Assembly (NCBI RefSeq): GCF_032854445.1
Contig: NC_088307.1
Location: 16,318,017-16,382,016, forward strand
Origin: Liolophura sinensis
Taxonomy: Eukaryota; Mollusca; Polyplacophora; Chitonida; Chitonidae
Direction: 5' to 3'
DNA length: 64,000 nucleotides
Positions within the stretch are counted from its first letter, which is position 1, and each line of letters opens with the position of its first letter. Below, in pieces: positions 11,140 through 63,640 of this stretch. A program made the position numbers and the translations under genes. Below the pieces are notes generated by a model. That model did not search any database and had not been told where the DNA came from. It was given only the letters and a program-made list of their open reading frames with translations.

Positions 11140-14100
11140 CTGCATTCTCAAAAAGACAACTAGGATGATTTGTCTTGAATGTCTTGAATTGATAAACGTT
11201 TACATGTATGAGGTTTACGAACATTTTACATGTTTAATTTGTTGTTTCATTCATTTTACGTGAAAGGTACAAAAGAGATACGATTTTGTCAGGATCCCCA
11301 TATATCGGCAGGGATCGTCACAATGGTGAAGTCGCAGCCTTCCATCTCAATAGGTAAGCTCGATCCTTCCATGGGTATGATATACCTATATATTATATAA
11401 ATATATATATATTGTATTTATTTATTTTATTTATTTATTTGATTGGTGTTTTACGCCATACTCAGGAATATTTCACTTATACTACATTGGTGAGGGGCTC
11501 CTGGGTCATTACACTGCGGTAGCGCGGTAACCAACTGGGCCCTTTATATACATGTATATTGTGATATGACCATTAAGTATAAAGATGTTCTGTTGGGCTT
11601 GTGTTTTAATAGCCTAACTCGGATAAAGCCTAATCTCACCACAGCAGACTTGCATGTCTGCATGGCTACTGTTTTCCACCGTTTAAAGTGGAAGAAAACT
11701 TTAAAAATGACACTATAGGCTGAAAAGAGCACATTTTCTTCTATAAGGTGGTGCCTGCTTCATAATTTTGTGATTTTTCCTCACCATACACGTAAAGCGG
11801 GAAAACGGCAAAGCTGGCATAAATCGCTGAGTCTGTCGCGTCCTCGATCTTTAACACCCTGTAATTTATGCTGAGGGTATGTTGCCTCTCAGCCAATGAG
11901 AGCCGTTAAAACTGCCGGTTTGTTTGTGTAAACTCGGAACCTACGTCCAGCAGATTTTGGCAATGACTTGATTTATAATTTATCAATTATTCACAATTTT
12001 TGTGAATTTTCTAATTTTTGTAATTTTCTGTGAAAAATTACATGTAAGCTTTAATTGGTATCACAAGTATCATTTTAAGGCCTATGTGCTTTCTAAAAGT
12101 GTACAGAACAAACTGTGGGCGAAGTACTGTATTTAAATGTCTGGTTACGCCTAATTAACGAGCAGATAACAATTAATCTGCGATAAAAAAAATAGTACGG
12201 AGTCATCATAAATGCTGGATTGATCATGTGATGAGTCATGGGGATTGTGAGGCACAAAAACCAGCTGAAGTCAAAGGTGACAGGTGGGTATTGTATACGA
12301 AATCTTTTTATTCCGGGCATCATGAACAGTCTTCTTGAATCATGTGCACATTTTTTACTCAGAGAGCCTTCATTTCATGCTATCATGGGATTGCTGCAGA
12401 TGAAAAGAGGTCCTGCAGGTGTCAAAACATCAGTATAGACTGTGTCACTACAAAAGTTTGTGTGGGTTTTTATCAGTACAAATCGGCTTCAATTGACGAT
12501 TCACAGGGATCATTGGTATTCGCAGCTCTGGTGTGACTGCACCTTTAATCCATCCCTCGCTGATTTGGCTTGAACATATATTTCACTGATGATTTAAAAG
12601 ATGACTTAACATGACATCAATTCCACACAGTGTGAAACAACTATACATGTACATACAGCTTCTAGATGTAAGTTATGCTGGCTTCCTCTCCAGCTGTAAG
12701 TGGGAAGGCTTCAGCAACCTACGAATGGTTGTGGGTTTCCCCCAGGCTCTGCTCGGTTTCTGCCCAGCATAATGCTGGCCATCATCGTAGAACTGAAATA
12801 TTCTTGAGTACAGCATAAAACACCAATCAAATAAATAAGTAAATAAATTCTAGATTTACCTGAAAAAAATACTGTTCAAGTGTAGCTGGTAAATAGCTGA
12901 CTTGTCCTACATGTGGAGTAAAAACTGGTAGTGTATTCTTAACACTGTAGATGGTAATTATCAGTTCATTATTTAATGTCATCATTTTAGTTTTAAGTAA
13001 TTAAGTGTTTTTCTCATATTTTGCAGAATTTTAGAGTTCCGACGGGCTCCATTAGTTGTTGGTCGCCGAATTAATCTGGACACAGAGATCATTCCTGTTG
13101 CGTCACCTGCACTACTGAAGACGTTTTTCACGAATGGTACAAAGGGTGCAGTTTGACCTGCAGTAAATAATACATGAATCTTTATCAGTGTTGAGGTAAA
13201 GCCGCTTTCACATGGTGCAATTGTCGGAAAATGAAAATAGAGCATTCACCACCTTATGTAATTTTTAGCTTTTTAAAAATGGCATCGTCTGAATGCCTTC
13301 GTAAAATATAGTTCCATTTTCATTCCACTGCTTGAATTCAATGAATCGATCCGACAAATCACATCATGTGAACGCAGCTTATAAACATATATACTAAGCA
13401 TCAGTCTGTTTTGTTTGTATAAACAAAATTAAGGAAAGAATATGCAGTTTATAAATATACTAAATAGATACTTTTGTAGATTTTTGTGTTAAAATGCATT
13501 CTTGTAACTCTTCATCACTTTTTTAAGATGATGTTGACAATGTAAAAAGTCACAGTAAAATCTGTTCTAAGAGGTAAATAATGAAATGTCCTGCCTTGTT
13601 TTTAACAAATGACACTATAGCTTGTTTTGTTTTTTATGCCTGCACATCAGTGGGGTACATTCTGCTACGATGTATTTTATATTTGCAGGAAGTAACACAT
13701 GCTTTTATGGAAAGTGTCTGTATTGTTTGGGCAAAGATGATGGGGTCTGTGCAGATAAAAATATTCTAGAAGGCGTTGTAGCGTTATGGTTTCCACTTGA
13801 GATGAAGCTTCAGCTGAGCAAGCATCCATGGGCACGGACCTACAAGAAAAATGTCAAGGCTTTGTAAGTATGAAGTTTTGCTCTATCATAAAGGAACCGT
13901 CAACAAGAACAAACCTATAGAAAACAACATCCAAGTTTTGTGTGTGTGAAATTGTGGTACAGCTAGGCAAGCATCTCTAGCAGCAACATCAGAGCTTTAA
14001 ATACATGTAGTGTGAAATTGTGGTGTAGCAATACGAATATCAGCTGCCAAACTCGTACAGAAAGAACATCCAAGCATTATTGTGTGAAATGATGGTTTAA

Positions 14101-17100
14101 AAAGAGGGCAAGCAGCTGAAAGCACAAGCATGCAGAAAGAACATCTAACATGTCTGAGCTTTGTTAGTGTGAAATTATGGTCAAGCTCAATAGCAAACAT
14201 TTGTTGCCATAAACTTTCAGAAATAACATCCAAGCTTTGTAAATTAGATAAAATGATGGTGATAAATGTATAGAGTTAAAGCATGCGGATAGAACATCCA
14301 AACTATGGAATTCTGGTGCAGCCAATCAAAGATCTGGGCCACAAACCTACAAAAAGATTTGTTAGTGTGAAATTATGAAAAAAACTCCAAGCTCAGTAAA
14401 GTGTGAAATGATGAAATGATGAAATCACTGTAGGCAAAAACCTACTAAGAAATTGATATATGTGGTGTAAAATACTAATCACATGATGCGAAGTATGAAT
14501 TATAATAGTAAATTTAAAAGAAAAACAAAAAACAATTTCCGTCTAAATTAAATAAATTTGTTATCCTATATTCTGTATATTGTTTATCAAATTGGAGTTG
14601 TTCCAAGTGAATTTTAAACTTGATGATACTTACATGGCACATGGGGCCTGCGTGGCTCAGTTAGTTAGCTCGCTAGTGCAGCGTAATGACCCAGGAGCCT
14701 TTCATCAATAGGGTCGCTGTGAGTTCAAGTCCAGCTCAGGCTGGCTTCCTCTCCGGCTGTATGTGGGAAGGTCAGCCAGCAACCTCTGGATGGTCATGGG
14801 TTTCCCCTGGGCTGTACCTGGTTTCCACCCACCATAATGCTGACCGCCGTTGTATAAGTGGAATATTCTTGAGTACGGTGTAAAGCACCAATCAAATAAA
14901 TAAATAAATACAAGGCATATGCTGACATCAGTGACATACATCATATCTGGCAATATCATCTCAGGAAGTTTCACTTATACGACGGCGGCCAGCATTATGG
15001 TGGGAGGAAACCGGGCAGAGTTTGGGGGAAACCCACGACCTTACAGCCGGAGAGTAAGCCAGCATGAGCTGGACTTGAACTCACAGCGACCGCATTGGTG
15101 AGAGACTCCTGGGTCATTACGCTGAAGATAATTTCTGTGTTCATTTCTGTTGTACTTTTTCAACGTATGGAAAGGAATCCCAGAGCTGATTATCCCTTCT
15201 TGTATCATTCTTGCACAGCAGACTTGAGGTCACATAATGGAAGAACTTTTTGATAAGAAATTAATCTCCAAAATCTCCAAAATAACATCTTGAATGGCCA
15301 TATAAGATGGATGGACCAATCAGAATGTGTTACTTGAAAAATTCTAATCTTTGGGTGAAATGCAGTAAATGGCGGAAAAACACATTAAAAAAAATACTTA
15401 ACAGAAGAAATAAATGATGTCAAATTTTCTCTCATTCATTAGATGGGAAACTGATGATACCTATTGTGATAAAATCAAGGGAATTCGTGTCTTCCAACAC
15501 AGCCCACTGCTCCTGGACATTTTGGATACAGCCATCTTTGATTACCTCATTGGAAATGGTGACCGTCACCATTATGAAAGGTTCAGAGATGAACCAGATG
15601 CTGCCCTGCTACTGCTAGATAATGCAAAAAGGTAACCAGTATACATACACAAAAGCAGATGTCAGATGCTGCCCTTCTGCTGCTAGATAATGCAAAAAGG
15701 TAACCAGTATACATACACAAAAGCAGATGTCAGATGCTGCCCTTCTGCTGCTAGATAATGCAAAAAGGTAACCAGTATACTTACACAAAAGCAGATGTCA
15801 GATGCTGCCCTTCTGCTGCTAGATAATGCAAAAAGGTAACCAGTATACATACACAAAAGCAGATGTTAGATGCTGCCCTTCTGCTGCTAGATAATGCAGA
15901 AAGGTAGCCAATATACATACACAAAAGCAGTTGTCAGATGGTGCCCTTCTGCTGCTAGATAATGCAAAAAAGGTAACCAGTGTACATACACAAAAGCAGT
16001 TGTCAGATGGTGCCCTTCTGCTGCTAGATAATGCAAAAAGGTAACCAGTATACATATACAAAAGCAGATGTTAGATGCTGCCCTTCTGCTGCTGGATATT
16101 GCAAAAAGGTAACCAGTATACATATACAAAAGCAGATGTCGGATGCTGACCTTCTGCAGCTAGATAATGCAAAAAGGTAACCAGTATACATACACAAAAG
16201 CAGATGTTAGATGCTGCCCTTCTGCTGCTAGATAATGCAGAAAGGTAGCCAATATACATACACAAAAGCAGTTGTCAGATGGTGCCCTTCTGCTGCTAGA
16301 TAATGCAAAAAAGGTAACCAGTGTACATACACAAAAGCAGTTGTCAGATGGTGCCCTTCTGCTGCTAGATAATGCAAAAAGGTAACCAGTATACATACAC
16401 AAAAGCAGTTGTCAGATGCTGCCCTTCTGCTGGATAATACCAAAAGGTAGCCAGTATACATACATGCTGTCCTTCTGCTGGATAATCCCAAAAGATAGCC
16501 AGTATGCATACATACTGTTCTTCTGCTGCAAGATAAGGTGACCAGTGTACATACATAAAAGCAGATAGCTGAGAGTCAAATGATCAACCCTTTGAACAAA
16601 AGGAACATCGCACTGCAGGTTCAATCCCGGCCTCGGACGAGGAATTTGTGGATTCCCTCCTTTCTCAAGTGGTTGACGGAGTGAGTTTGTATGCTGATTC
16701 ATATTACTTGGGAAATGTACTTTTTGTTGTTTCCGTGGCTTCTTGTCCCCTGGCTTGGTGCCTTCCTGACTGGTTGCTCAGTATAAGTGAGTAGACCAAG
16801 GACTGTGGGACTGTTGTCATGCATAGGTCCCAGATCTGTTGTAACATCATTTTAATGAGGCAGCACTAGAAATATTTCGGCATTGAGTTCAGCTTGCAGG
16901 GAACATGTCAAGAAATTGCAGAAATAATATAAAAGATGCTGAGATGTGTAAAGCAACAAAATCCCAAGCAAACGAACCAACCAGTCATTTTCTGCAGCCA
17001 AAGTTGGATTAGTGCTTTGAGACAATTACAGACTGATGTTAGAATATGTACATAGTACTGTATAAATAGACAGATGAAAGTTTACTTTAATACATACATG

Positions 17101-33885: not shown

Positions 33886-34125
33886 ATGTATTTTGATTCC
33901 AATAAGACTGCAGTAGTCAAGAGGCAATGCATTATACTAGTAGAAGTATAATAGAAGTTAATTACTAGAAGTAATTTTTCAAAAATTCCGAAATCACACA
34001 CTGCTGGTTTAGGTGAAATGTGCACGCTAAAAGGTTGTCAGTTTGTGTACCACGCATAACTTAACAAAGCCATGTGTCAAATGTTACACATTATTATTGG
34101 TGTTAAAACGAGCTATTATGAACCC

Positions 34126-41335: not shown

Positions 41336-41336
<1 letters not shown>

Positions 41337-41401
<65 letters not shown>
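41337..41401. repeat. AT dinucleotide run
   Basis: About 65 bp of alternating AT between PhyH B exons 3 and 2. Confidence 0.95.
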
Positions 41402-41405
<4 letters not shown>

Positions 41406-42045: not shown

Positions 42046-42124
42046 CACCGTCATCGTGTAAGTGAAAAATTTGTGGGACTATGGCCTCAAACTCAATCAA
42101 ATAAAGTAATAAATAAATAAATAA
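42046..42124 (+). mobile_element. SINE tail fragment
   Basis: CACCGTCATCGTGTAAGTGA then a degraded block and AATCAAATAAAGTAATAAAT. In PhyH B intron 1. Confidence 0.65.
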
Positions 42125-42699
42125 TTACAACATCTGACTCAAAATCATACAGACTACTATATAGTGTTTTTTTTTTCAGTTCCAACAAACAGCCCATGGG
42201 TAGCGCTGTCTGTCAGTCGGTCTGTTGGTCGATAAGTGAAATTGATTGACATCCTTAACACGAACCATTCACTTAACTAACTGCAAGGCGGCATCTGGTG
42301 TTTGCGGGAGTAGCAGCTATTGTGAATTTTCGCTTGTTCTAATATAGCTTGATGTTGAATTACAGGACTTGTTCGACGTGACTGCTGTTCTATAAAAGTG
42401 AAATAATCTTTAATAAATTCAGCGTGCAATACAAATGATACTATTGACAGTTAGGCCCATACCTGTGTTGATTTTCTCCATATTAAGTCGCTCCCGCTGC
42501 CGCACACCTGTTGTTGATTACACGGCCCCAGGCAGACAGAGGGATAGCCAGGTGGATTTAAGGTTCATGCACCAATTTAAACTGCAGATAAAAAATGTAT
42601 TATAGCATGTTACAAGCATGTTGAAGGCCGATAAACAATCGAGTGGTACAAAACGATAACTGTAAGCTAGGTACTATTTGCTCCCTTTAAGAAATAATC

Positions 42700-46328: not shown

Positions 46329-49300
46329 ATGGAGAGCATAAACACAGGTACGTAGCCTACAGACGATTTATCATCGCAATTGTTGTCTTGTCTTTTTTCC
46401 CCGCTTGAAGAGTTCAAACACAGAACATGCAGTAACCTACATGTAGAGGTTATATGAACTGACACTATACGATGCGCGGTTTAAATTCTGTCAAAACATA
46501 TTTATCGCTTCGGAAAAGTGTTTAGTCATTATTCTATTAATTGTTACAGAATTTCATTACGACCCCGAATACTTCCGGTTCACCCCGGAAATGAAAATGG
46601 CCTTCGACGAGTGTGGATATATCCTTGTCAGGTAGGACTTCTGCATCTACGTAAATGACATACAGACGCTGTTTTCTTAACATCACTTAAATGGTTCGAT
46701 ATTCTTGAATATGTCGTAAAACACCAATCAGATAAATAAATGTCTAAATGTTCAGTGTTTAAATAAATAAATAAATAAAAGTTACCATGATAAAGAGCTC
46801 CATAAATTTTCAGAGTTTTACTTTTGAATTCATCCTATGACAAGTTAGATCTGCCTGTAGTTCAAACTGCTGAACCAGTTATAGATAATGCTCAGCTGCT
46901 AATACAGACTGCCTCCCGCCTTGCAAACATTGACAAATATTCTTCACTTTGAGCCAGATCCAGTCGGAAATGTATACACAGTTTTTTCCACAATCATCTT
47001 TTCCCATGTATCTCTTCAAAGAAAAATGTTTAACTCAAATTGCAATGACCATGACAGAGCCACATTGTTATAATACATGACAATATTTCCGTGTAGAAAG
47101 TTCCTTATTCGCAAATTTTTTTAAAAGTTTATAATTCTAACCAAGTAACCTTCGCGTCAGGCGATTGCCCTGACTTATTAAATCGTACTTTGTTATTTTT
47201 TTTATTTGAACAGAGGAGTGCTGAGCGCTTCAGAAGTAAGCAAAGTAAAAAATGCGGTGGAAATCTCCAAAGAAATCCAGGAAAATGCCTTTGCGGTAAA
47301 ATTGTCGCCGTTTAAAAACCAAAACTTAGAATCCAACAGATAACGATGTATACAGCACACGCAGATAACGGGTTGTAGGCCTACATCACACGCACATAAC
47401 GGGTTGTAGGCCTACATCACACGCAGATAACGGGATATACAGCCCACGTAAATAACGAGATATACAGTACACATAGAAAACGGGATTTACACCGCACGTA
47501 GATAGCGGGATATACACCACACGTACATAGCGGGATATACGGGACACACAGATAACGGGATAGACAGCACACACAGATAACGGGATATACACCACGCGTA
47601 GATAGCAGGATATACAGCACACGCAGATAAAGGGATATACAGCACACACAGATAGCTGGGTATATAGCACACCCAGATAACGGGATATGCAGCACACGTA
47701 GATAGCCGGATATACAGCACACGTAGATAGTGGGATATACAGCACGCACAGGATGCGGGATATACAACATGTAGATAACGGGATATACAGCATACACAGC
47801 CAGTGGGATATACAGCAAACGCCGATAACGGGATATACAGCACACGCAGATAAAGGGATATAAAGCACACGTAGATAAGGGGATATACAGCAAACGTAGA
47901 TAACGGGATATACGCCACACGTAGATAAGGGGATATACAGAACATGCAGATAACGGGATATAAAGCACACTGAGATAGCGAGATATACAGCACACGCAGG
48001 TAATGGGATATTCAGCACACGCAGATAACTAAATGTACAGCACACGCAGATAGCGGGATATACAACACACGCCGATAGCGGGATAAACAGCACACACAGA
48101 TAACGGGATGTACGGCACACACAGATAGCGGAATAAACAGCACACCCAGATAACGGGATATACAGCACACACAGAATGCGGGATATACAGCATGTAGATA
48201 ACGGGATATTCAGCATACACAGCTAGCGGGATATACAGCACACGCAGATAACGGGATATACAGCAGGCGTAGATAATGGGATATACAGCACACGCCGATA
48301 GCGGGATATACAGCACAGATAGATAATGGGATATACAGCAAACGTAGATAACGGGATACACACCACAAGTAGATAAGGGGATATAGAGCACACGCATATG
48401 ACGGGATATAAAGCACACGGAGCAAGCGGGATATACAGCACACGCAGGTAATGGGATATACAGCATACGCAGATAACGGAATATACAGCACACACCGATA
48501 GCGGGATATACAGCACACACAGATAACGGGATATAGAGCGCACGCAAATTTGGTAGAACCATTCAATTTTACAGCTATTATACAGTGGCTTTAAACATCA
48601 GTTAGTCTTAAACCAACTAAATGTTCTGTGTGATCAGGAACCTTTCTGAAATTCGAATCCATATCGAATTCAATAGTCTAAATCTCAACTCATTTACAGA
48701 GTACAGTGTATTGTATCTTTAAAGGATACATGAAACGCTTTTATTTTTTTAAACGGTTTTATTTCTTAATTTACAAATTATCATATGTCATAACGTATAA
48801 CAGTACAGACAAATTCTTCAACTTTCACCTTGGGGGTAAAAATGGCTTCAAAGTACAGTCTGGAAGTTAAGTAGCTTGCAACGATGACGTCAGCCATGAT
48901 CCCTGTTTTAAAGGAACTCTGTGGGGAACAGACCGAACGAGTCTGGCCGAATGGGGGGTGAGGGTGTAGGGGTGCGGAGGGGGCGAGGGGGGGGGGGGTC
49001 TGCGCTAAGCTGGCCCGAAGAAGCCATGCAGTATCTGTGTACATGTCACCTTGCTCACACTGAAGCGATACGGTTCATCGGGCTCGGGGCACTTCAGGGA
49101 TGTTCACCGAGTTCCGAGCAAGATCAGGGATGACGTAATTTCGGGAAAAAATCTAACCGTTGACGGAAAATATGCATAATATAGAGGGTTAATTAACAGG
49201 TGTAAAAATACCCCGAAAATGAAATTTTTTGAACAAAAATTCTGGGGCATAATTTTCTTCATTTGGCATGGAAACATAATCATTATTTAATTGTTCCATT

Positions 49301-50985
49301 TCATGTACCCTTAAAGTCACACACTTAACCCATTTTTTCTGCGTCATGAATTGTGATGGGAGGTGACGTATTTATCTAAACACCTTTTAATCTGGGCTGA
49401 ACACGTTTGATTCAAATGTCCTATTTTCCTTCCATGTAGTGTTTATATTTACCTATTTCATTTTTAGAGAATATGTATATTTAACGCCCACACATTTTCA
49501 CCTCATTTCTTTCCACCTTTCTGCATTTTATAACTGTAACTGTAACTGTAAGTTACTGTAACTTGAAGTTAATTGCATAGCAATGCGATTGTAACTGTGC
49601 AATCTGACAGGCTCAGAATTCTGATAGATAGATGACGGTGAAGGCGGGAAAAGCCGACTGTGTATCTGGAGTCATCCCGGAAATGACATCACAGGAATGG
49701 TGGCCCGGTGCGAGAAAGTTGCCGGAGTGAGCGAAAAGGTACACGGTTTGGTCAGTGTGATTTAACTAGATTCCTCAAGAGAACATCAAACAGCTGGGTT
49801 TGCTGTTTCACTGCTCTATCTTTATTATTAATCTCTGTCACTGATTACATTTTATCTGATTTAGTTGCTGATTGATTGTCTTTTGGATGTGTGCTCAAAA
49901 AAGTCTTCGAAGCAGGTATTGAGTTGCAAAGCCGAAACTGCATGTATATATTGTGAAAATGCGTAAGGCGCAAGATTTGAATTTGGGAGTGTTTGTTTGT
50001 GTCTTCTGTAATGCTTGGCATCCCACATTTCAGCCCATGACAGTTTGCTGTAAATTGGTAAAAGTGTCACCGGCTTGATGTTGTAGTGACAGTCATTGAT
50101 TTATAGTTCAACGCCATACTTAATAGTGTATTTGGCCACTGTGGCCGAGTACTAGAGGTTGGCATGCCAGCGAATCACAATAACTCCGGGGCCCTCACTA
50201 ATGCGGTCGCTAGCAGTTTGTCCAGCTCATGCCGGTCTTGCGAAGGTCTTGCAGCAGCCTGCGGATGAACGTGGGTTTCCCCCGTGCTGCTGGCCTTCGT
50301 AAGTGAAATCTTCTTAAATGTATACTGCCTAAAACGCCAGTAAAGAAAATAAATCAATCAATAATTCCTCACTTATATGATAGCGGTCAGTTGTATGGCT
50401 GGGAGAAACCGGAGTGCACGAGGTAAACCGCAAACCTTCGGCAACTACTGACGAACTTTGGATGGATGTGTGACGTACAGATATGCACAGTGGTCTGTAC
50501 AACGGACAACGAGCGCCGTATTTTACACTGTACAATAGAATATTCCAATTATAAGACAGCATTATGGACACGAAATCTGGGCAGAGCCCGGGGTAAATCC
50601 ACGACCATCTGCAGGTTGCCGGAAGACCTTCCCATGTGCGACCGGAGAAGAAGCAGCACCGAGCGTGTATTGTCACCATTGTACGAAGAGCGAAACCGGA
50701 AATTTTCAAAACCCCTGCATGATATCCAAAGCCAGGATTGAACCCCAACCTTGTGTGATTAGGAGTTGTACGATCATCAAATGACTACAGTATATAATAT
50801 CTAACGTCTCGACGTGCCTGATGTATTTCAGTTACTTGGGGGAGAGGTCTACCATTACCACACTAAACTCATGATGAAGGAAGCTCACACGGGAGGCAAA
50901 TTCGTATGGCATCAGGATTACGGGTAAACTCATCTTCATTTTAATCCCGGACGGTGATGACGTTGACGTGTGTGTGTGCTGTGCG

Positions 50986-51021
<36 letters not shown>

Positions 51022-54000
51022 GAGGGCGGTGATTTCCATGGATGGAAGATACCGGATTGATACCAACCGGTATTTGGCACCACAGCTGACAAACTTTCCT
51101 GTATTTATCAGACGAACAGAGAGACTTCATTGTGTATATGCCATACTGCGGAAAGGCAAGTAATGGAAGGCAGCAGACTAGCGCAAGATGATGCGATATT
51201 GCTGATCCAAAACGATGGTGATATATCTTGGACAATATATAATTGTGTAAAATTATGTTTTGATTTGCCGACTTAGACCCTGAATTAACCAGTCCCTTAG
51301 CGACAAGCATATTGTTGTTTATTTATTAATTCATTTGATTTGATTTTTGCCCAGTGCCATACTTAAGAAGTTCTCACTTACTCGATGACGGTAAATTTTA
51401 TGCGCGAGAGCAACTCGAGTGCCCCGCGTAAACCACCGACATTTCATTTTATCGTTGTAACTGAAGTTTTGATTCGGCCCATCCTTACTTGACCTGTCAT
51501 TGCTTTCAGATACTGGTACAAAAACGGCTTCCTGTTTCCAAACATGCTGACGGTATTTATGCCTGTAGATGAGTGTAACAGAGATAACGGTTGTCTTCAG
51601 GTAAGTCTGAGACAAAAAACAAAATCTAATGACGAGTGAAACACACAAGTGTAACGTGTAACGTCTCTCGTGTAACGTAAAGCGTGGTCATAAATGTCTG
51701 GTGCCATAGTTATTCCTTAGAGAGCAGTAACATTATATGAACGACTATTTTTAATGAACGGCTAGATTACATTTAACAAACGCCCTTGTTGTAGTCCATG
51801 AATCAAAACGTAAAACGCCCACAACTTTTCAAAGGGAACCTCATTTATCTACATGTGAAGACCAAAAAAAAAAAAATAAAATAAATAAATAACCTACCAT
51901 TTAGTGTTGTGCGAAGACCTCTCATATATTAATATGACTGCTGATCCAGGTTCTGCGGGGGTCTCACAAATGCGGCCGTATCGAGCACCTGTTCATCGGC
52001 GGACAGACCGGGGCCGACCTTGAAAGGGTGGAGCAACTGAAGAAAAAGTTACCTTTGGAATTCGTGGAGATGAAACCGGGTAAGACACATTGTCATGAGA
52101 TTGTGACACCGTGAGATATTAGTGTGTCGTGGGACCGGGTGAGATCACAGTGTTGTGGGACGGGGTGAGATTACAGTGTCATGAGACCGGATGAAAGCAG
52201 AGTGTCGTGGGACCGTTAGACCGTGCGAAATTGCTGTGTGGTGAGACGAGTAAGGTCACAGTGTCGTGAGACCGGGGGACATCACTGTGGCGAAGGGTTA
52301 GATGACAAGTTTCGTGAGAGCGAGTGACATCACTGTATCGTGATACTTTTCATTGATGTTTTACGCCGTACTCAAGGATATTCTCTTAAACGACGGCGTC
52401 CAGCGTTATGGTGTGAGCAAATCGGAGGAAACCCACGACGATTCGCAGGTTACTGCAGACCTTCCTGCGTATACGACTGGAAGCCAGCATAAGCAGGACT
52501 GGCTCACACCGACCGCATTGGTGAATGGCTCCTGGGCCATGGCCCCGCGCTGACACGCTAACCACTTCGGCCACTTTGACTCACTGTACCGTGAGGCCAG
52601 GTGAGATCACTGTGTCATGTTGACCAGGTAAGGTCACTGTGCCGCATCACTGTGTCGTGAGACCGGTCGAAATCACTGTGAGATCTGTGTGTTGCTATTT
52701 ATTTAAAGTACCATAGCTGTAAATAAACAGCGATAACTTATATCCAGTTACGGGTACACTACAATGTCTTTTTTGCCCTTTTGTTACAATTAATATATAC
52801 CTAAATGTGGTATACATTTTAAGTAGGTTGGGTACATGCACACCAAGGTAAAGGCGATTCATTTTGACCCGCTCATGGAACCCTGCACGTAACTTTTGTC
52901 CTCCAGGTGACGGCCTATATTTGCATTGTACTCCTTATATCTTATAATTTGGTCTCCCAGATGACAGCCTATTTAATCACAAAGTCTTCTAATTTCTTCC
53001 TCTGTTTCACTGCCTGTATTTCTACAGTACCCAGAATATATCCTATATTCTTCTTACGGGTAATGGCCTGTGTTTCCACAGTACCCATTATATCTTCAAA
53101 TTTCGCCCTCCAGGTGACGTCCAGTATTTCTACAGTATCCAACATATTTTCTAATTTCGTCTTACAGGTAATGGCCTGTATTTCCAAAGTACCCATTATA
53201 TCTTGCATATCGTTTTCCAGGTTTTCCACAGTACCCCATATATCTTCAAATTTCGTCCTCCAGGTGACGGCCTGTATTTCCACAGTAACCTTCTGCACAT
53301 GAGCTCCCCCAACAAGAGTCCGAACAGACGCTGGGCGTTCCTCGTGGCCTACAGCAGAGCCGATAATGATGCCGTGTACGAACATCACCTACCGTTTTGC
53401 ACGCCAGTACATGAGGTAAGGAAACTGGTGACTCGAGTTCACATTTCCTGCACTTGAGCTTCGATTTTGTTATGTATGTATCTTATTCTTATGGCCATTA
53501 GGGAGGCGTTTTGTCTTGGATGTATACATTACGCCTGATCAGAAGTTTACATAAGTATGTATCAATTTGACATAGAATTAAAAATTGAACACTTTTAATC
53601 TACCCTGCTGATTCCAAAATAAATAGGATGATTTTCTTTCAGTTTTCCCATGTGATAGGTTTTCATGAAGTTCTGAAGCTCCATTGCCCAGTTGCCTTAT
53701 GGATATGGGTATCGATTATTGATATGGATAGTGCCGACCACCACATTCGCCCCTAGACTGATTAAATGACGTCATATGACGTCAGGTTTATGGGTGGGGA
53801 AAACCAGAATGTTCGGGAGAAGCTAACCCTGACCAGCACCGTCAGACTTCAATCCAGCCGGTGCGACTTTACGTTAGAACGTTCGTTCATCACAAGGCAA
53901 AGGGCAATGGTTTTCTCCGGTCTCTTACAAGTATTAACTGACCGCCGTAGTATCAGTGCAAAATAGTCAAAAAACGACGTAAAAAGTCAACCAGTCAAAT

Positions 54001-54128
54001 AAACGTCATGTTATTTCAACAGGTTCCCGAACACGGCTGTGATAGATTGTGACGATGTGGATATGTCTGGTAAAGGATTTATGGACCCTACTAGAGACAA
54101 GACTATCAAGAGAGAAAGAGACAGTTAA
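46329..54128 (+). CDS. Phytanoyl-CoA dioxygenase (PhyH) family gene, copy A, frameshift in last exon
   Basis: Non-haem Fe(II)/2-oxoglutarate oxygenase; substrate not predictable (molluscan relatives are often labelled proline hydroxylase-like, which is only an annotation habit). Exons: 46329-46347, 46550-46631, 47214-47295, 49628-49738, 50832-50923, 51510-51600, 51950-52079, 53264-53415, 54023-54128. Exons 1-8 give 253 codons. Iron ligands H125 and D127 (WHQDYG), distal H214 (LLHMS), and R225 (NRRW), 11 residues after that His as in human PHYH. No signal peptide or membrane segment is seen at the start MESINTEFHYD. In exon 9 the run CCC near 54026 has one base more than copy B implies: as read, the protein ends after VPEHGCDRL (TGA 54050), while the next frame runs [13 protein letters not shown] to TAA at 54126. 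This is a true frameshift or a base-call error. A candidate AATAAA lies at 54538. Introns 3 and 7 and both sides of exon 8 hold tandem arrays. Confidence 0.88.
46697..46742 (+). mobile_element. SINE tail fragment
   Basis: ATATTCTTGAATATGTCGTA then AAACACCAATCAGATAAATA. In PhyH A intron 2. Confidence 0.75.
47340..48545. repeat. 25-bp minisatellite, roughly 45-50 copies, in PhyH A intron 3
   Basis: Units of GATAACGGGATATACAGCAC followed by ACGCA. It starts 45 bp after the exon 3 donor. Because 25 is not a multiple of three, three units make one 75-bp cycle; the minus strand is open in all three frames for hundreds of bases, giving [10 protein letters not shown]-type repeats. These frames are not genes. 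The mirrored intron of copy B lacks the array. Confidence 0.93.
50143..50360 (+). mobile_element. Common SINE, strongly diverged
   Basis: Keeps GTGGCCGAGTACTAGAGG, CTCACTAATGCGGTCGCT, GCAGCCTGCGGATGAACG and a degraded tail. In PhyH A intron 4. Confidence 0.7.
50370..50660 (-). mobile_element. Diverged or composite SINE, reverse orientation
   Basis: SINE-like stretches at 50370-50445 and 50575-50655 (GGGCAGAGCCCGGGGTAAAT, CAGGTTGCCGGAAGACCTTC) flank unrelated-looking sequence; possibly one copy split by an insertion. Confidence 0.6.
50980..51020. repeat. GT dinucleotide run
   Basis: GT/TG run just after PhyH A exon 5. Confidence 0.9.
51322..51435 (-). mobile_element. Common SINE tail, decayed, reverse orientation
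   Basis: TTTATTAATTCATTTGATTT, then a broken GCCATACTTAAGAAGTTCTC block. Old copy in PhyH A intron 5. Confidence 0.65.
52066..52690. repeat. 26-bp minisatellite derived from the PhyH A exon 7 donor junction
   Basis: The true donor reads AAACCGG|GTAAGACACA at 52079. Downstream units read GGGACCGGGTGAGATCACAG then TGTCGT, about twelve times, many keeping CCGG|GTGAG or CAG|GTAAG donors. A reverse-strand SINE (52350-52578) has landed inside and splits the array. Confidence 0.85.
52350..52578 (-). mobile_element. Common SINE, reverse orientation, inside a minisatellite
   Basis: From TGATGTTTTACGCCGTACTC to CTAACCACTTCGGCCAC; diverged but with head and body. It interrupts the donor-derived array of PhyH A intron 7. 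Confidence 0.88.
52895..53290. repeat. 52-bp minisatellite derived from the PhyH A exon 8 acceptor junction
   Basis: Seven copies of TCCTCCAG|GTGACGGCCTG then TATTTCCACAGTACCC precede and merge into the true exon start at 53264. The first copy (52906) reads GDGLYLH in the same phase as exon 8 before meeting a stop. Several copies keep an AG at the acceptor position. Confidence 0.9.
53938..54003 (+). mobile_element. SINE tail fragment next to the PhyH A exon 9 acceptor
   Basis: CTGACCGCCGTAGTATCAGT then AAAGTCAACCAGTCAAATAAAC; ends about 20 bp before the acceptor at 54022 and may supply its branch region. Confidence 0.6.
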
Positions 54129-54290
54129 GAAAAGACACAAAAAGGGAAAGAGAAAACTAGGGCGTGACAAATTCTCGCGGTATCGAGAGGGAAAGAGACA
54201 TATTATCGCGGTTATCAATAGGGAAAGAGACATATTCTCGCGGTTATCAAGAGGGAAAGAGACAGTTAGGACGTGACATATAGTCACGGT
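54088..54290. repeat. Tandem array derived from the PhyH A coding end
   Basis: The end of exon 9 (TATCAAGAGAGAAAGAGACA then GTTAAG, containing the TAA) recurs about three more times as TATCAAGAGGGAAAGAGACA followed by a TATTCTCGCGGT spacer. It spans the last codons and the start of the 3' UTR. Confidence 0.8.
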
Positions 54291-54537
54291 TATCTCACGT
54301 GTTTTAACGAGGCAAGAAAAACGTTCAGTGGTATAGGGTTACACCAAGACGAAAGTACAATCTACTCCACCAAATGAAGAAAATTGGGAAAACGGCATAT
54401 TTCACGACATCCTCTTTCACGCCCTCCGCTCCAATCAACGGCAAGCTGAGCCATTGCAGTTGACCTTGAAATTTCAAAGTTGCTTATGCATACAATTGTT
54501 GCGTGGCGTACATGTAGGAATGTAGAAGTTTTGCAAT

Positions 54538-54543
54538 AATAAA
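54538..54543 (+). terminator. Candidate poly(A) signal of PhyH copy A
   Basis: AATAAA about 410 nt after the exon 9 stop, outside any SINE. Confidence 0.4.
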
Positions 54544-54780
54544 AGTGTTATCTATCCATTAGGTGAAATATCACCTTTCTGACTGAAGGAAATCTCGACA
54601 TTTCACCTATATAGATACATATGAATCATAAAAATCATCTAACACGTGAACAAGTTCAAATCCTTTTATTTACACAAATTCAACAGCAAGACGTTAATTT
54701 AATCGGGGAGGTAAACATACCAGTCGGTATGTTGCGTGACACCCCCAATGTTGGTTGAAAGGTCATATCTATATAATATA

Positions 54781-54941
54781 CTCTCCCGCCGTAAGTGGGA
54801 AGGTCTCCAGCAACCTGCGGATGGCCGTGGGTTTCCGCCGGGCTCTGCCCCGTTTCCTCCCACCATAATGCTGCCCGCCGTCGTATAAGTGAAATATTTT
54901 TGAGTATGGCGTAAAACACCAATGAAATAAATAAATAAATC
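54781..54941 (+). mobile_element. Common SINE, body and tail only
   Basis: From CTCCCGCCGTAAGTGGGAAG to AATAAATAAATAAATC, downstream of PhyH A. Confidence 0.9.
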
Positions 54942-57900
54942 TATTTAATATACATACATGTATTTGTACCAGGCCCACAAATCACAGTGGGTAGTATTAA
55001 TTTTTTTATATAAAATGTTGTATAGTTACATACGTCAGTCCATATAATGTATGTTACGTCCAGGAAGAAAATCTTTCCATGCAACTAACATGTATATATA
55101 ACATGTTAGGTGTAAATTCAAATAGGATAATACAATTTTATTTTCGTTTTTTTTTTCTGATCATACTACTTTGGGTCTATCCGAAGCACTTCATATAGTC
55201 AGGACCGATTGCAGCCAGGCGCGGGGGGGGGGGGGGGGAAGGGGTAGTGGGTAGAACGTCTGTCATGTGAACGGTAGTTTCGGGGGTCATTCACGAATTG
55301 AGTCTTACAACAGACTAACATCGGTATTCTTAGCACTATTTTCGCTTAACGCTATGGATAAGATGTCTGCCCGGTGAAAATATAATGTGACTGGGTGGAG
55401 GGTCGTACCGGGTGTCTTCAGCATGGCATTCTAGTGAGACTGCACTATTCACTATTCTCTGCATTGGGTCTGGCTGATATAAGCAAACATTGTCGTAATT
55501 TGACTGAAACAATGTTGAAAGTGAAGTTAGTCTACGTTAATCAAACAAACAAATCAGTGAGCTGTACAGAGGATGATTAAAACTCGGCATACATCTGTGC
55601 TTATGACCCAACTCAACTTAACTCAGCTCCACTGTTGCGTCGGTGTCTATGAAATCGTGTATGCGAAATAACCGCACAACTCAACAGGAGTAGTACTCCA
55701 GTCGTTACGTGTATGCCAATCTAACTTAAAATCGTTGGCCATCAGCGACTGAGCCCAACTCGGTACGACCAGCTGAGTCGCGTCATAAACCCTCGTATAT
55801 GTCGACCTGAAGGTGCAAAGAATTACATTACAAATAACAGTCAACTGTACATCTGAAATACACGCGCACAACTGAGAAAATTATAAGTTTGAGACGTGGC
55901 CAAATTCAAAGTTACAAAACACTACATAAGAAATATGACATATATACTAACGATTTCATCTGAGCATGAACTCAAGAATATTTGATGGCCATTTATGCTC
56001 ACTCCATTTAATACGTGCATAAATAATGACGTCAATAAGCCATTAGTTTATTGTGTTCATTATGGCTCAGAGTAGTAATTAAACACTTACTCACAGTTCC
56101 GTTTACAATTTATGCTTGATACACATGCTGACAACCTTTAGTGTGAGCATTCCATCTGAAGCATTATATATATATATATATATATATATACGCTCAGCAC
56201 TATTGAAGAACTATTTCTGGCACTGGTAAAATAATTGACATCTACACCACTACAGCCTTGTTCGACCACGACCATCCGCTGGTTGCTGACAGATCTTCCC
56301 ACGTACCAGGCTTGTTCGAGTAATAATTAAACATTTACACACTTTTTTTCTAAACTGGTGACAACCTTAAGTGTAAACATTACATCTAAACCAGCCGTGT
56401 GTACATACATACGTTCAGTACTATTGGCGAACTAATTTTGCTTCGGGTACAATGAATGCATCTAGATTACTTGAAATAATCAAATGACGTTCACGACAAG
56501 ATGCCTGGCCGCTAACTCCCGCAGCTTGTCACACAAGACTTGCGGAAGATCAGGCTGTGATATCAAGTGAACTGATACACCATTGGAGCTAGTCAGTATG
56601 TTAACCGCTGGGACAAAGGGACTCGACACATTCAGCTCAATTATAGTAGCAAAAACCTGATTCCTGCTGCAGTCTATGAATATCATGATCTTACTATAAG
56701 TGTCCAGATAAATACCAACTCTGTCTATCCGTCTGCAGGCCTTCCACTTCTCCCTGGGTTTGTCGGCAGGATCTTTGCTGTATAGGCACCATTTGTACTT
56801 GTTTTTGTTACACTTTAGTGGGATGGCGTACGTAACATACTTGTACTTGCGAGTAGGCTCCTCCAGACTGTCTTTATTACCGACGCCCAACACACACACC
56901 CATTTCCCAGAAGGTGCTAGAAGGGACACCAATCTCCCAGTAAAATCTACCATCTTCTAGGAGGCCATCTGTCAACGCCCCAAAAGTGAAAGATATTTTG
57001 CCACTAAGGCCCACAGTGGTAACGGTCAACCCATCTTGCTGGATCTTCAATTGGCCCACGTAATGTCCTGCCCTTATGAACTCATAGAGGGTGCTTTAAT
57101 TAAAAAAAGACAAGTATTGGATAATATCTTATCCGAAAGTTCATCTTTTGAGCTCTTTCTAAAACTACATATATTTTATACAGCATAAATATCTGTCTCT
57201 TTGTTTTTTCACTATACATATACAGTAAATGAATGGGATCCAGTTTGTGGAAGCTAAAAGGTAAGACAAACAGCATGAAAATATATGATAAATTTTCTAA
57301 ATTTTAGCGTTGGCTAATCTTTAGAAACTCCAATCAGGGTTTTGCAAATGCAAAAATTTCAACAAGAGTCTTCAACGTATCAACGAGTCTCCAAAGTCAG
57401 CCTGAGGCCAACAGTTTTAATACGTAAAGACTATAATATTGCTTACTTGCCACAGTTATTCCACTGGATTGATTTTCAAACAAGTTTTTCACAACACCAA
57501 CAGATTTGGTGGTTGCGGGGTCGCGTTGTATTGAAAGACGGCATCTTAAATTGTCGGCTGTCTGCTTGTCAAGGACATCGCTGTAGGCTGAAATACTTCT
57601 CTGTACTCTACAGCAAGCGCACGGATGTAGACCAGTAACATAAGGTATATAGTATCACCCAGTGATTTAAAATTGAATCTACTGCTTTCCACCCATTTTT
57701 CAAATTTATCTACATGTAATGTTTTACTCTTACAAAGTAGAATTAACATGAAAAATACTTTTTTGTACTCTATATTTTTCAGTAAATTATTTCAATGAAG
57801 ATAAGGAAATATAATACATACAGTAGACATAAATTCTTCATCAATTACACAAATATTTACAATACATGTATATTGTTAATGAGGGGCACTTCAAAAGCTT

Positions 57901-58429
57901 ACACACATTTTAAAAGCTTAAAATGTTGAATGAACTGGAAGTCAAAAAAAAAAAATGCGATCTTAACAATTATATATTGAAACCAAGCAAAGATAACGGT
58001 AATGACGCATATGCACATGCACATGCACAATAGGACTATACAGGTTGACGACAGTCATTAAAGCTATAAATTCCAGGTAAAGCGAGGTTAATGCAGTTTA
58101 TATCCATTCATGAAATGGCCGCGTGATATTATCAATTTGATCATGTTTTTTTCTAACCATTGAAAATTCTGGAAATTAATTTAATGCCTTAGATCTCAAA
58201 TGTACATGCATAGTCTTGCATAAGCGTGTCCCTTATAAAAATCAGGCTTCATCTGCAAGAGGGCTCTATATAGACTTCTCCAAGCTGTCAATCAAGAACA
58301 ACCTTTCCGCCAATCAAGTGACACAGTTCCAGGATGAAAGGAATAGTAACGTTGTCACGAGAATCAATGGTGGAATCAATCCATAACTGATCATTACAAA
58401 GAAGATAAAAGTTCTTCATATGTTTTTGA

Positions 58430-58610
58430 ACAACCAGTACTGGATCTCGACCTACTCCCGCGCCCAGACCCACTCCCGGATCCAGATCCACTACCAGACT
58501 TGTCCCCACTTCAGAGCCGGCCCCACTTCCAGAGCCGGCCCCACCCCGGAGGCGGCCCCACTCCCGGCCGTGCAGTTGGACCCTGTCCCAGACCCGCGGA
58601 CCTGACATCT
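58430..58610. repeat. GC-rich short-period repeat
   Basis: A 180-bp patch much richer in G and C than its surroundings, with repeats of AGAGCCGGCCCCACTTCC. On the minus strand it stays open in two frames and encodes Gly/Val/Ala-rich low-complexity sequence. It may be an exon of an unknown gene, but simple repetition explains the open frames. Confidence 0.5.
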
Positions 58611-60914
58611 GGTGGGTATACGTACTGAATAGAAAATGCCCAACCCACCAAAATATGACGAGTTTGTCCAAGGGTCGTACGGATTATCGGTTGTACTTGC
58701 CATTCTCCCGGCTGCCAGCTTCCCTCACCTGTACCTTACAAAGAATATGAACATATAGCTTGACAAAGTATTTATCCGATAGATTTGTGTTCATGGCCAT
58801 GCTCAAGAATTTCTTATGTTACAATGTAGACGGTCTGCTTCATGGGTGAAGAAAAAGAAGTGCTCTGGTCGAAGCAGCATGATATCAGTTGATATCGATG
58901 GAGGGATTAACTCCCGCTGGTTTCTCAATTGAGTTTAGTCCCCAAAAAAAATTCGGTGGAAATAAATCTTTTCAATTTCCATATATTTTCTGTTGGATAT
59001 ACCTAATTTTCATTATTTATCAACTTCACTATGCCGATGGGCAACAAATCACGATAAGCGAAGTTCCACGATTAAGCTCACCATTTCACACGTTAGTGAA
59101 AATGACTATGATTGGCTTGTAGCGTTTCGTTGTAATTTAGCGCAAATTCACGAATAAATGCTGGAAATATGTAAAGCGATCTATTCGGTCACAATATAAT
59201 GCGGCCCATGACCAGATCATCACGACTCGCGGCTCTTTAGAGGGTTACAATCTACTGTTAAGGGACGACGATCTCCTGGCATCAGATCAAATCCCGTCTA
59301 AGGGGCAACATTCTAATCCCGTGAAAGGTTCCACAATCTAATGCCGTCTAGGGGAGCAAAATCTAATCTAACTTAAGAAGCGGCTGAGGAGCCACGTTCA
59401 AATCCCACTGTAGTGACCCAACAGATTCCAGTCTATGCGGAACCAAAATCTAATCCAGTTTAAAGGTGAACAATTTAATCCAGTCTAAGTAAGTTAAAAT
59501 CTTGTCCAGTCGAAAAATGTAATCCAGGCTAAGGGAACGCAATCTAATCCAGTCTAATGAAACACAGTTTAATCCAGTCTAACGGAACACAGTTTAATCC
59601 AGTCTAACGGAACACTGTCTAATCCAGTCTATGGGTGTAGCGAAATCTATCGCGATGAGTGTTAATGTTCTTCGTTTACCTCTACCCGTCGTTTTGAAAT
59701 GACAGGTATCAGGCCTTTAGATATCAACCGACGATCAGTCAGGCCTTTTCAAAAGATATACAAGCCTGAAAACCAACTGACTCATACATAAACGTACGTC
59801 AATGTGGACAGGGAGGCGCTAAATATGTGACGGCTTATTTGGCGGACAGAAAATGCAACGTCTTCAACAAAGTTACGCACTTTATATACTTAGTAGTCTA
59901 TCCAACCTACCTGGTCACTTCCACCTGTATCAAAAATGCTACCTGTACAGGTGAATTTTGCTACCACATGTTCTTTCTTTTGTTGCCAATAGTTACGTAA
60001 CACCTTTCTGCCAGGCGAACACTCTCAAACTCCTTTCCAATCACAATATCGATCCCTAAAAATAGGTGGCATCATCCAGAATACAATCAACTCGCACAAC
60101 GCTCTGCAACAACAACGTTAAGAGAAAACACAATAAATAGTATAGTCCGAGTTTTTAAGAAGATGAGTGAAAACTGACCTAAACGGTCACAGGCATTTTT
60201 TTTTTTTTTTTTTGGCAACTGTATAAATCAACCTCTAATAAGGACTGTAACAAGGCCACGTTGGAGCAACCGGAAACATTATGTCGCCTCACTCGTACCC
60301 TAAGGCTTGCACAATTACGGTTGAAAGGCTAAACACACTTCGAGTGACGTAAGCGGAAACAGATGCGTCCTCGGGTTATAGAAATAACTCGCACCCGATA
60401 GGATCAAACTTATAACATGGTCGCACTTTCTATTGTGTCAATGTGCGTGATTCTGTTTACCTTAAACTGTGATATCTTGGTTGTGTAACATCAAACAATA
60501 AACTATACTATACCGAAGCTTATAAACACCTTGGTTAGTGCTGTTTTTTTCTTTTAACACCAATCATTTTACGATTTAATCTGAAACAAATCTTACATGT
60601 AGGTCATAGCACACACGTCAGATCACGGTAAAAAAAACATTTTCTACGCCCTTAGCCACTTTCTCAGAAAGTTATATATCTCATAAATGGTGGCTCTGTA
60701 TATTTAGAATCGAACCAGGGGTCCACACATCTACAACCTTTCGTGCATCTATCTAAAATCCCACGTAAAACGCGAAAGACTGTCCAAGTTTATCTCGTTG
60801 AGTGTACTGGCTAGCCTGTTTGGACCGAGAAGAACTCGGCAAGTTTCACCAACTTAGGTGAGCTTCACTTTCGTATCCTCGATCTACCAACAATGACAGG
60901 AGGCGAGTGCTTAC

Positions 60915-60939
60915 CTGGAAGTTCTTCTATGTCATTGTT
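60915..60939 (-). CDS. Candidate 25-nt micro-exon of TRIM copy 2
   Basis: On the minus strand an acceptor TTGACACAG and a donor GTAAGC bound 25 nt encoding NNDIEELP plus one base. Copy 1 has TTGACACAG before its 23-nt exon at 29560-29582. The two micro-exons align loosely around GACAT. Distance to the next exon is 3.3 kb against 2.7 kb in copy 1. Frame is kept only with the acceptor giving a start at 57605. Short, so it could be chance. Confidence 0.4.
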
Positions 60940-63234
60940 CTGTGTCAATGAAGGTGTGGTGAAACTGTATATTTTATTCTCAAATTACATGGAAGTTTTT
61001 TCAGTAAACAGTGTTATGAAACTCTTGGCTCTCAGAGTTTTATTTTGTACACAAGATTTAACCGTTCACCTGTGGCGTTATTGTTGACCTTGTTCTATGT
61101 AGCTGCCTTCGACACAAATATGCCACAATTTAATCCCGTCTGAGGATCCCTTATCGAATCCCATCTAAGGTCTAACTCGTCTTGGAGATCTGATCACGTC
61201 TAGGAGATGACAATCTGATCCTGTCTAGAGGACCACAATCTGATCCCTCCTGGGGGACCACAGTCTGATCCGATCTAGGAGAGGACAATCTGATCCCTTC
61301 TAGAAGACGGCAATCTAATCCGGATCACAATCTAAAGGGGTCTAGTAGAAGTGAAGTCGGATAATAGGTTCAAATCAATGAACCATCAAAAATAACTCTC
61401 TTATCTTATACCACTAGCAGATAAAACGGAACTGACCAACACTGCGAACCTAGAGGATAGCAAGTCTAGCTAGACTGACGACGCCAAATACACAGCAACA
61501 TTCTAGAGGCTGAGAAAGCATCGGGTTCTCTTCGTGTTCGCCATCTCTTGGCCCACTTGCACAATGAGATCGCAGCTACAATCGATTGTAGATCCTACAA
61601 CTCAGTTTACAACTGTTTTTCAAAATAAGTAGGTTATATAAAATTGAACGGGATTGTAAGGCGATTAAATTTTTGAAGTTACAATGGCGATAGTAGGCCA
61701 TATTTGACTCATACATAAAGGTGGCCGGTGTAAATGGACAATGTACCGGTCAATAATTTCTCTTACTTTCATTTTCAAAAGTGTTCTACATAATAATGAT
61801 TCAACAGCTAACAACAATTTTACAAAATTCGCGTAATATCTTTTTGAGACAATCGCATTGCACATCTTTGCAGGCCTATACCTAGGACAAATATTTGTTA
61901 ACATTAATTTTGGGACAATTGTAAACATTTACAACTGGGTCGACCCGATTCATGTCCGACATTCATATACCATTCGTAATCCGTAAAGGGCGTTCCAAGT
62001 CTCTCGAGCTTCACCGTTCGCTATGAACGATTTTAACTTTTACAAGACCGCCACTATTAGGTAACTCTCAGACCGTTGGATGTCACATGTGTTGAAAGCA
62101 ACAAGCAGAGACAAACGCTTTTGATTATTATGACTGGACAATATGACAATATCACATGTTCGGTCACATGACCATTCAAAATGGAGTGGTCATGTTGACG
62201 CCACGTGATCAACATCCAGTCTTTTCCGTTAATGTAGTGAAATCTGAGTAGGCAGAAGCCAATGTAAGCTTTTTGTATTGAAGCCAAGGAAGAAAGAGTC
62301 TAATGCTACGTCATATTATCTTTTCTGAAACCAAAACAGAAAGAGGCAAATATTTGCTATGTGTTAAGGTTAAGAAAGACGGCAGGCAATGATGAGTATA
62401 TGTACTGAAGCAGAGAAATAAAGAGACTATTGCTAGCTAAATGCAATGTACCCAAGAAAGACAGACGATAATGCTATAGGTATATATACAGAAAGAAAGC
62501 GTCCCATGCTTGTTATATGTACTCGAAGAAAGAGACTCATGCTATCTTCATGTCAGAGTCAGAAAGAGAAAGAGGCAAATATTAGCTACATACGTGATTA
62601 AGCTAAGAACGATAAAAATAGCTGAGTAACATTTTGGCTATAAATACCCAAGGGAAGACAGAGTTAGCCTGGCAATGTGGCCAATGTTACATGCAGCAAC
62701 ATCGAAGTGAAATAATGCAGAGAAAGAAAGAAACCTCCTGAAAAGAAAGTGTCTGACAGGAGGAGATGGATATGAACTTTGTATACACTCTCTGATTGCC
62801 CAGGTTTCCAAATCCTCATAGGAAACAATGACAAACAGACTATGGAATGAGCTAAACATGCCGATGCTCTCATGATTAAAGTGCACTGTATACAGTCTGT
62901 GCCGTGGCTGTTCCCTTGAGTCAGTCTGGAACACTCTGGGTGTATTACTATAGTATTTATTAGACACGCATGTTTTGGTGCATAAATTGAATCCAAACTG
63001 CATGTACATGTAATAAAAAGCTGCTAACCTATGGTATTTATACTTACAGAGGTCCGTAACGCCCGAAATCCTATGTCAGTAAAAACAAACGGATAATATT
63101 TTCTATGAAAAGAGGGTAATATTGTCGACTTAAATCAGAACTTATGTACAGTATATGAATGAAGAGTCAGTGTTATCTTGTTGAGAACTCGAGCATCACA
63201 GAACATGTAAAAACTTTGGAGTAACAAAGAAAAA

Positions 63235-63640
63235 GAACTCAAACCAGTGAGAAACCCCTACCCATACTTATGAGAAATCCCTATGCTGACATAATGAGAA
63301 ACCTCTACCTGAATGAGAAATCCTACCCTTGCATACCATATCTGAAACCCCTATGCTTACATATGAGAAACTCTTATGCTGACATATGAGAGCCCCTTAC
63401 CCTAACATATGTGGAACTCTTACCCTGACATAAGAGAACCCCCTGCCCTGACATATGAGGAACTCTTACCCTGACATATCAGAACCTCCTACCCTGAGAT
63501 ATGAGAACCCCCTACCTTAACATAAGAGAACCCCTTACCCTGACACATGAGGAACTCTTACCCTGACATATGAGAACCTCCTACCCTGACACATGAGAAC
63601 CCCCTACCCTGACATATAAGAAACACCTACCCTGACATAT
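63235..63640. repeat. 24-bp minisatellite derived from the TRIM copy 2 exon 3 donor junction
   Basis: On the minus strand exon 3 ends TATGTCAGG|GTAGGTG. The following 400 bp repeat TATGTCAGGGTAGGGGGTTC then TCA about 16 times, so the donor GG|GTAGG is multiplied in the intron. Copy 1 ends exon 3 with TTTGTTCGG|GTAGGG and has no array. Confidence 0.92.

Follow-up and report, generated by a model that had tools for sequence, protein, structure and literature searches.

Several genes of the chiton Liolophura sinensis carry minisatellites whose repeat units span one of the gene's own exon edges, and I will argue that these are probably mirage-type minisatellites, that is, products of ordinary local duplication in which the edge became part of the unit where the seed straddled it, AG|GT being untargeted. 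The phenomenon is already described, as the "mirage" minisatellites of amphioxus (lancelets), and the apparent novelty lies in the phylum and in the density, the lancelet repeat type being met here in a mollusc, at seven or eight edges within 64 kb. The window, by which I mean the whole stretch analysed, comprises 64,000 nt of one haplotype (GCF_032854445.1, NC_088307.1, 16,318,017-16,382,016) and contains FAM20B, whose junctions agree fully (100%) with P0121, an annotated protein of L. sinensis, followed by an inverted duplication with TRIM-like 1 (+) and PhyH B (-) in copy 1 (26611-42481) and PhyH A (+) and TRIM-like 2 (-) in copy 2 (46550-63861). PhyH A and B have eight exons in common, with the introns between those exons at the same positions; the PhyH B model is 100% identical to annotated P0001 across 209 aa, and a frameshifted tail is common to both. 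The "TRIM" gene shows a SPRY resemblance that is sub-threshold only, and the donor at 63631 in its second copy was placed solely via alignment to the paralogous copy. Tandem arrays are abundant in the window (33 loci, 12.1% of the sequence), and according to TRF their units are unlike one another between arrays; a search of literature text with the letters of a SINE-like repeat gave no match.

The edge test covered 59 exon edges and was run against two nulls, a plain Gumbel fit and one with the top 3% of null scores trimmed because paralogue matches inflate it, a trimming chosen post hoc and so partly dependent on the result. Nine of the 59 edges pass, and six do so at the strict cut-off of p<0.0005. 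A preliminary description had named seven arrays as tandem copies of a boundary of the gene in which they lie; its junction coordinates hold and all seven sites are among the nine, although two of them (13863 and 52079) are weak, and the list had missed the paralogous acceptor 36723, which is the eighth. The ninth, acceptor 57607 (p=3e-5, trimmed null), is a lone A-rich 20-bp copy with no array, and it was dropped, being counted in the raw nine and removed from the corrected counts.

At FAM20B, the exon at 15443-15631 (+; Pfam Fam20C, gene model, identical to P0121) contributes its last 37 bases as the outermost copy of an array that crosses donor 15631 into the intron (15595-16528, +; TRF, array profile and copy alignment), with a 68-bp unit that includes 37 exon bases and a 341-bp higher-order period. 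A profile made from the array minus this outermost copy recovers the junction at E=2e-22, GT is kept in 13/14 copies, and the 11 inner copies share 93.9% identity with one another and are, within the exon part, fixed for two synonymous changes relative to the exon copy, as when the boundary of a cluster escapes homogenisation. Nine inner copies have nine bases identical to the true donor, which makes this a natural setting in which to ask how the spliceosome tells the correct site from identical neighbours; a transcript read through the true donor would reach a stop codon one codon further. The annotated (predicted) proteins splice at the edge copy, and splicing may well be faithful. The other FAM20B site, the exon with donor 13863 (13689-13863, +; gene model, P0121), is followed by degenerate junction-like copies (13847-14440, +; 4 copies, 67-75% identity), for which TRF gave no row; the edge test returned p=0.016 with the plain Gumbel null and 0.005 with the trimmed null, and the junction is the first-ranked profile match but at E=0.064, so that the link to the exon edge is weak.

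The PhyH genes carry arrays at both kinds of splice site. The acceptor array that precedes and enters PhyH A exon 7 (exon at 53264-53415, +, by the gene model; array at 52880-53290, +, by TRF at 53012-53265, eight copies and profile) has a 42- to 54-bp unit that takes in the first 27 bases of the exon, holds 27-29 exon bases and keeps AG in 5/8 copies each, and its profile recovers the 53264 junction at E=2e-15. The second match of this profile is the paralogous PhyH B exon-7 acceptor 36723, which comes with one clear and one partial further copy (36698-36839, -; edge test and profile; matches at E=4e-14 and 2e-8). Around this acceptor, 134 bp are 91% alike between PhyH A and B, while third-position differences in exons 1-6 are 35, 50, 19, 57, 61 and 9%; the array could be older than the gene duplication or could have been copied by gene conversion, and it was therefore left out of the dating. 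In PhyH B, exon 4 (38253-38344, -; gene model, P0001) is joined at acceptor 38344 by an array of about 20 copies of a 42-bp unit with about 15 exon bases (38330-39237, -; TRF, copies and profile), in which AG is kept in 16/20 copies and for which the junction is profile rank 1 at E=0.003; the array consensus alone does not single out exon 4. Downstream of PhyH A exon 6 (51950-52079, +; gene model), donor-like copies of a 26-bp unit extend over 52071-52676 (+; TRF core 52124-52215, copy alignment), where the edge test gave p=0.051 with the plain Gumbel null and 0.003 with the trimmed null and the junction was only the fourth profile match (E=10), a weak link to the exon.

One array lies at a stop codon, where the last exon of PhyH A ends (54104-54294, +; stop 54126-54128; TRF, edge test and profile), with a 32-bp unit and up to 25 exon bases; the edge at 54128 scores 44 with 25 exon bases, and the stop ranks only fourth (E=8) with a profile drawn from just 3 copies. 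The TRIM-like copy 2 donor array (63248-63640, -; TRF, copies and profile) has a 23-bp unit with 10 exon bases and keeps GT in 6/8 copies; the 63631 junction is profile rank 1 at E=0.006, and its exon part alone scores 20, the null averaging 21.7. Taken together, the arrays at 15631, at the PhyH exon-7 acceptor (53264 and 36723) and at the PhyH A stop clearly contain exon sequence, the evidence that those at 38344 and 63631 hold exon-edge sequence is moderate, and each strong array taken singly exceeds chance. The earlier observation that the arrays sit on the intron or 3' UTR side is borne out, and decoy signals are retained, GT or AG persisting in most copies.

The process that I propose would begin with the tandem duplication of a local 23-68 bp segment by an ordinary minisatellite process, presumably slippage or unequal exchange. 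Given a seed that straddled the edge of an exon, the copy attached to that exon would retain a working splice site or stop, while the other copies would come to lie in the intron or 3' UTR by position, there to expand, homogenise and decay under little constraint. The junction would then belong to the unit owing to the position of the seed, possibly with some mild enrichment, rather than through targeting of AG|GT; the suggestion in the preliminary description that selection tolerates arrays only if their outermost copy keeps the exon intact accounts for the geometry. This reading draws on the exon bases found in the units and on the gene's own junction being the top outside match in 5/7 arrays.

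How far placement is a matter of chance is where the readings part. Across 1525 circular shifts the number of passing edges averages 2.16 and never reaches the observed nine, and TRF arrays at edges number 3-5 against 0.78 expected (P=0.04-0.001); edges lie inside any array about as often as the noncoding background does (9/59, 15%, and 847/6000 points, 14%). It is conceivable, if rather unlikely, that an AG|GT motif, a composition step or splicing-linked DNA structures lift the local duplication rate at junctions, since end copies occur at 9/59 edges compared with 3.4-3.6% of control points, and without 57607 and with paralogous acceptors merged there are still seven events against 2.1 (P=0.006). 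However, stricter cut-offs on the merged data give P=0.04 and 0.09, counted as not significant, P becomes 0.13 for the seven events if edge arrays remain detectable twice as long, and 0.13-0.42 across the analyses with doubled expectation, and the window was selected because the pattern had been noticed there. Furthermore, the duplication process favouring AG|GT that had been put forward earlier finds no counterpart in the other arrays, AGGT/ACCT occurring in 5 of 28 non-edge TRF loci compared with 4.2 expected from shuffles. Edges receive arrays at 2-4 times the rate expected from geometry, so that chance alone may not fully explain their placement. The excess is modest and fragile, however: with paralogues merged and a correction for the slower decay of copies anchored to an exon, it loses significance, and the window offers no proof that duplication specially favours splice junctions.

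The presence of exon bases and AG|GT in the units also recalls a birth of the introns through tandem duplication of exon segments that contain AGGT, of which the arrays would be remnants, and such gains are published (PMC4974935); yet intron positions are shared by PhyH A and B and four arrays occur in one copy only, the paralogous edges 37256, 50832, 36457 and 26841 failing the edge test (array absent in 4/4 copy-specific cases). Those introns therefore predate those arrays, and intron gain, dismissed for PhyH, is very improbable overall. Least credible of all is a mobile or introner-like element that seeded the arrays: introners are widespread (PMC9860276), but no unit is common to several loci within the window, the units being unrelated, and among the best five matches per profile other loci have E>=0.6 apart from the PhyH paralogue, in keeping with the earlier claim that the units stem from the gene's own edge.

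The ordinary-duplication reading has a precedent in amphioxus, where mirages are found in Adh3, the globins BflGb6 and BflGb9 and troponin C, with PGBD5 being similar. Unit lengths are comparable (10-72 bp in amphioxus Adh3, 23-68 bp in the chiton), and in both animals units join exon bases, boundary and intron bases (clear at 15631 and 53264/36723, moderate at 38344 and 63631, weak at 13863 and 52079), both boundary types are hit (chiton donors 15631 and 63631, acceptors 53264, 36723 and 38344), AG or GT is kept by many, not all, copies, and inner copies are homogenised with the boundary copy excluded, in the chiton at FAM20B only. Amphioxus mirages also show undisturbed splicing and length instability between haplotypes or in soma, whereas the chiton arrays are known here from one haplotype's sequence; the chiton is, moreover, a mollusc and not a cephalochordate, and has one array at a stop codon. 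In the Rogers model, as covered by the parts of the source consulted, introns are gained by duplication of AGGT-containing exon sequence (potato RdRp, ATP2A1, fission yeast), and the chiton tandem copies likewise carry exon bases and splice signals, but the intron there is new while the PhyH introns are common to old paralogues (PMC4974935). Human segmental duplications contain variable internal tandem repeats with units of about 30 bp that alter paralogue gene structure, sometimes at an exon-intron boundary, and half of these, in the portion of the report available, are coding, whereas the chiton copies lie in introns or the 3' UTR (PMC2812944). The available part of an account of earthworm intronic minisatellites describes no boundary copies (PMC12783039).

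The window also holds pairs of paralogues in which one member carries an array at a given junction and the other does not. Junctions that attract duplication, if true, would bear on intron and exon birth, which is beyond what the window can establish. I would regard it as a tentative possibility that mirage arrays mark a substantial fraction of the exon edges in chiton genomes, as in those of amphioxus, and that some have been recruited as coding exons, in which case boundary minisatellites would offer genomes rich in such repeats a general way of gaining exons. The TRIM-like query found 13 predicted L. sinensis proteins (P0241-P0253; ACF- and RBM46/47-like) that share residues 1-33 of its exon, a stretch that is repeated in tandem up to six times in predicted protein P0241, and the copies end in KEVSSVR and variants, which, judged from sequence, could be a translated donor plus acceptor.

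Of 59 exon edges tested in the window, nine have a recognizable copy of the edge itself on their intron side (p<0.005), as judged by comparing 25 exon and 15 intron bases from each with as much as 700 bp of that side and calibrating the scores on other parts of the window; the edge of the TRIM-like copy TRIM2 (-) at 63861, where the sequence before the window end is too short, is scored as a miss among the 59. These nine comprise the FAM20B donors at 13863 and 15631, the PhyH A (+) donor at 52079, exon-7 acceptor at 53264 and stop at 54126-54128, the acceptor at 38344 in its minus-strand paralogue PhyH B and the TRIM2 donor at 63631, together with the PhyH B acceptor at 36723 and an edge at 57607. 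The preliminary description had derived the first seven arrays from the edges of their own genes, and all seven pass this test, but two of them fare less well when each array, minus its junction-adjoining copy, is made into a profile and scanned across the whole window. Their own junction ranks first for the arrays at 15631 (E=2e-22), 53264 (E=2e-15), 38344 (E=0.003), 63631 (E=0.006) and 13863 (E=0.064), but only fourth for 52079 (E=10), where another two array copies and a chance match rank higher; the PhyH A exon end is likewise fourth for the stop array (E=8, profile of three copies), although there the direct alignment, with 25 exon bases and a score of 44, is strong. Matching array consensuses to exons only, three of 33 exceed shuffles, each at its own edge; the array at 63248 selects its own edge without exceeding them, and the others, including those near 38344 and 52079, do not select theirs.

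How far this departs from chance depends on the background, which is set by the question asked. Among 6000 random noncoding points, 847 (14.1%) fall anywhere within an array, much like the 15% of exon edges in arrays, and 205 (3.4%) fall within the end copy on a given side, the only place where an edge is possible because an inner one would break the exon. On the end-copy comparison, nine passes exceed all 1525 circular shifts (mean 2.16), and at a strict cut-off six edges remain against a shift mean of 1.69, with 0.85% of shifts giving at least that many; the shifts overlap and are not independent. Dropping 57607 and merging two paralogous acceptors leaves 7, 5 and 4 events at three cut-offs against 2.1, 1.9 and 1.7 expected (P=0.006, 0.04 and 0.09), or P=0.13, 0.32 and 0.42 if the expectation is doubled to allow roughly, by argument rather than measurement, for exon copies being spared decay; all of these figures come from a window chosen because the pattern had been noticed there.

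As to origin, the units run from 23 to 68 bp, are mutually unrelated and each match their own gene, in line with the earlier argument against one mobile source. A duplication process favoring AG|GT, also proposed there, is not supported because, among the 28 arrays that do not lie at an edge, AGGT/ACCT occurs in 5, where 4.2 are expected. What fits is that a short segment would be duplicated locally, its copies would expand and homogenize within the intron and the edge copy would be retained by selection: the units are those of the gene concerned, four arrays have no paralogous counterpart passing the edge test (52079/37256, 38344/50832, 54128/36457 and 63631/26841), and 11 aligned inner copies at FAM20B 15631, which show a higher-order period of 341 bp, average 93.9% alike and together depart from the exon copy at two synonymous positions of the unit.

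Signals of the kind expected in the predicted ladders of decoy splice sites persist, with GT kept in 13 of 14 copies at 15631, 6/8 at 63631, 4/4 at 52079 and 3/4 at 13863, and AG in 16/20 at 38344 and 5/8 at 53264, hence in most copies of the six arrays scored (at 36723 neither of two copies was readable). The edge copy is the splice site in the annotated (predicted) gene models. The 9-mer of the true FAM20B donor is exact in nine inner copies (10 occurrences with the true donor), and, because read-through beyond it gives lysine, arginine and stop, use of an inner donor should truncate the kinase. Tandem repeats across exon-intron boundaries, at either end and with AG/GT in many copies, are described as "mirages" in a study of amphioxus globin genes, which includes a model of intron gain and recounts length and somatic instability in earlier Adh3 mirages (PMC3087553), and PGBD5 and troponin C are added in another paper (PMC3902484). 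I file the L. sinensis arrays under this known kind, in another phylum; none of the titles and abstracts listed from an open-license library reports a molluscan case, which is weak evidence that none has been published.

Tandem arrays with a period of at least 10 bp (TRF) occupy 33 loci totaling 7741 bp (12.1% of the window), against 0.08% listed under "other (simple repeat, microsatellite, RNA)" in the paper on the 609-Mb HiFi assembly GCA_032854445.1 (PMC11068029), whose species was renamed L. sinensis by correction (PMC12441733), and minisatellites may be undercounted there. The census includes a 25-bp array of ~46 copies (47351-48546) in PhyH A intron 2, starting ~55 bp past the exon-2 donor and without a match to neighboring exon 2. 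A SINE-like repeat, which ends in ATAAATAAATAA and whose letters gave no match in a literature text search, is dispersed on both strands (14640-14910, 32700-32970 and many other places).

Several arrays lie in an inverted duplication (26611-42481 and 46550-63861) of a TRIM-like/PhyH gene pair, in which TRIM1 (+)/PhyH B (-) is mirrored by PhyH A (+)/TRIM2 (-). Eight exons match between the PhyH copies, with GT-AG ends and, in exons 1-6, equal lengths; a ninth, first exon was found in PhyH B only. The copies are old, because synonymous divergence over exons 1-6 is ~1.0 (Ka 0.08) and the introns are mostly unalignable. Exons 3 and 6 are far more alike than the others, and this mosaic divergence suggests gene conversion there and at the exon-7 acceptor. 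The C terminus may be altered in both copies: PhyH B exon 7 (36663-36723, -) is 91 bp shorter than that of PhyH A, and the annotated L. sinensis protein P0001 is identical to the window-assembled PhyH B over 209 residues and has the frameshifted tail in common with it, while the last PhyH A exon (54023-54128, +) is out of frame. Array-unit-like sequence at 54104-54128 encodes the last PhyH A residues (after TIK), and since PhyH B ends otherwise, a new C terminus may have come from the stop array. The annotated L. sinensis protein P0121 is 100% identical to the FAM20B exons found in the window.

Residues 1-33 of the TRIM-like exon (26611-26706, +; 63861-63766, -) recur in up to six tandem copies in annotated ACF/RBM46/47-like proteins of L. 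sinensis, in all 13 of the proteins found (P0241-P0253), and these could be an exon-derived tandem array that became coding or a prediction artifact.
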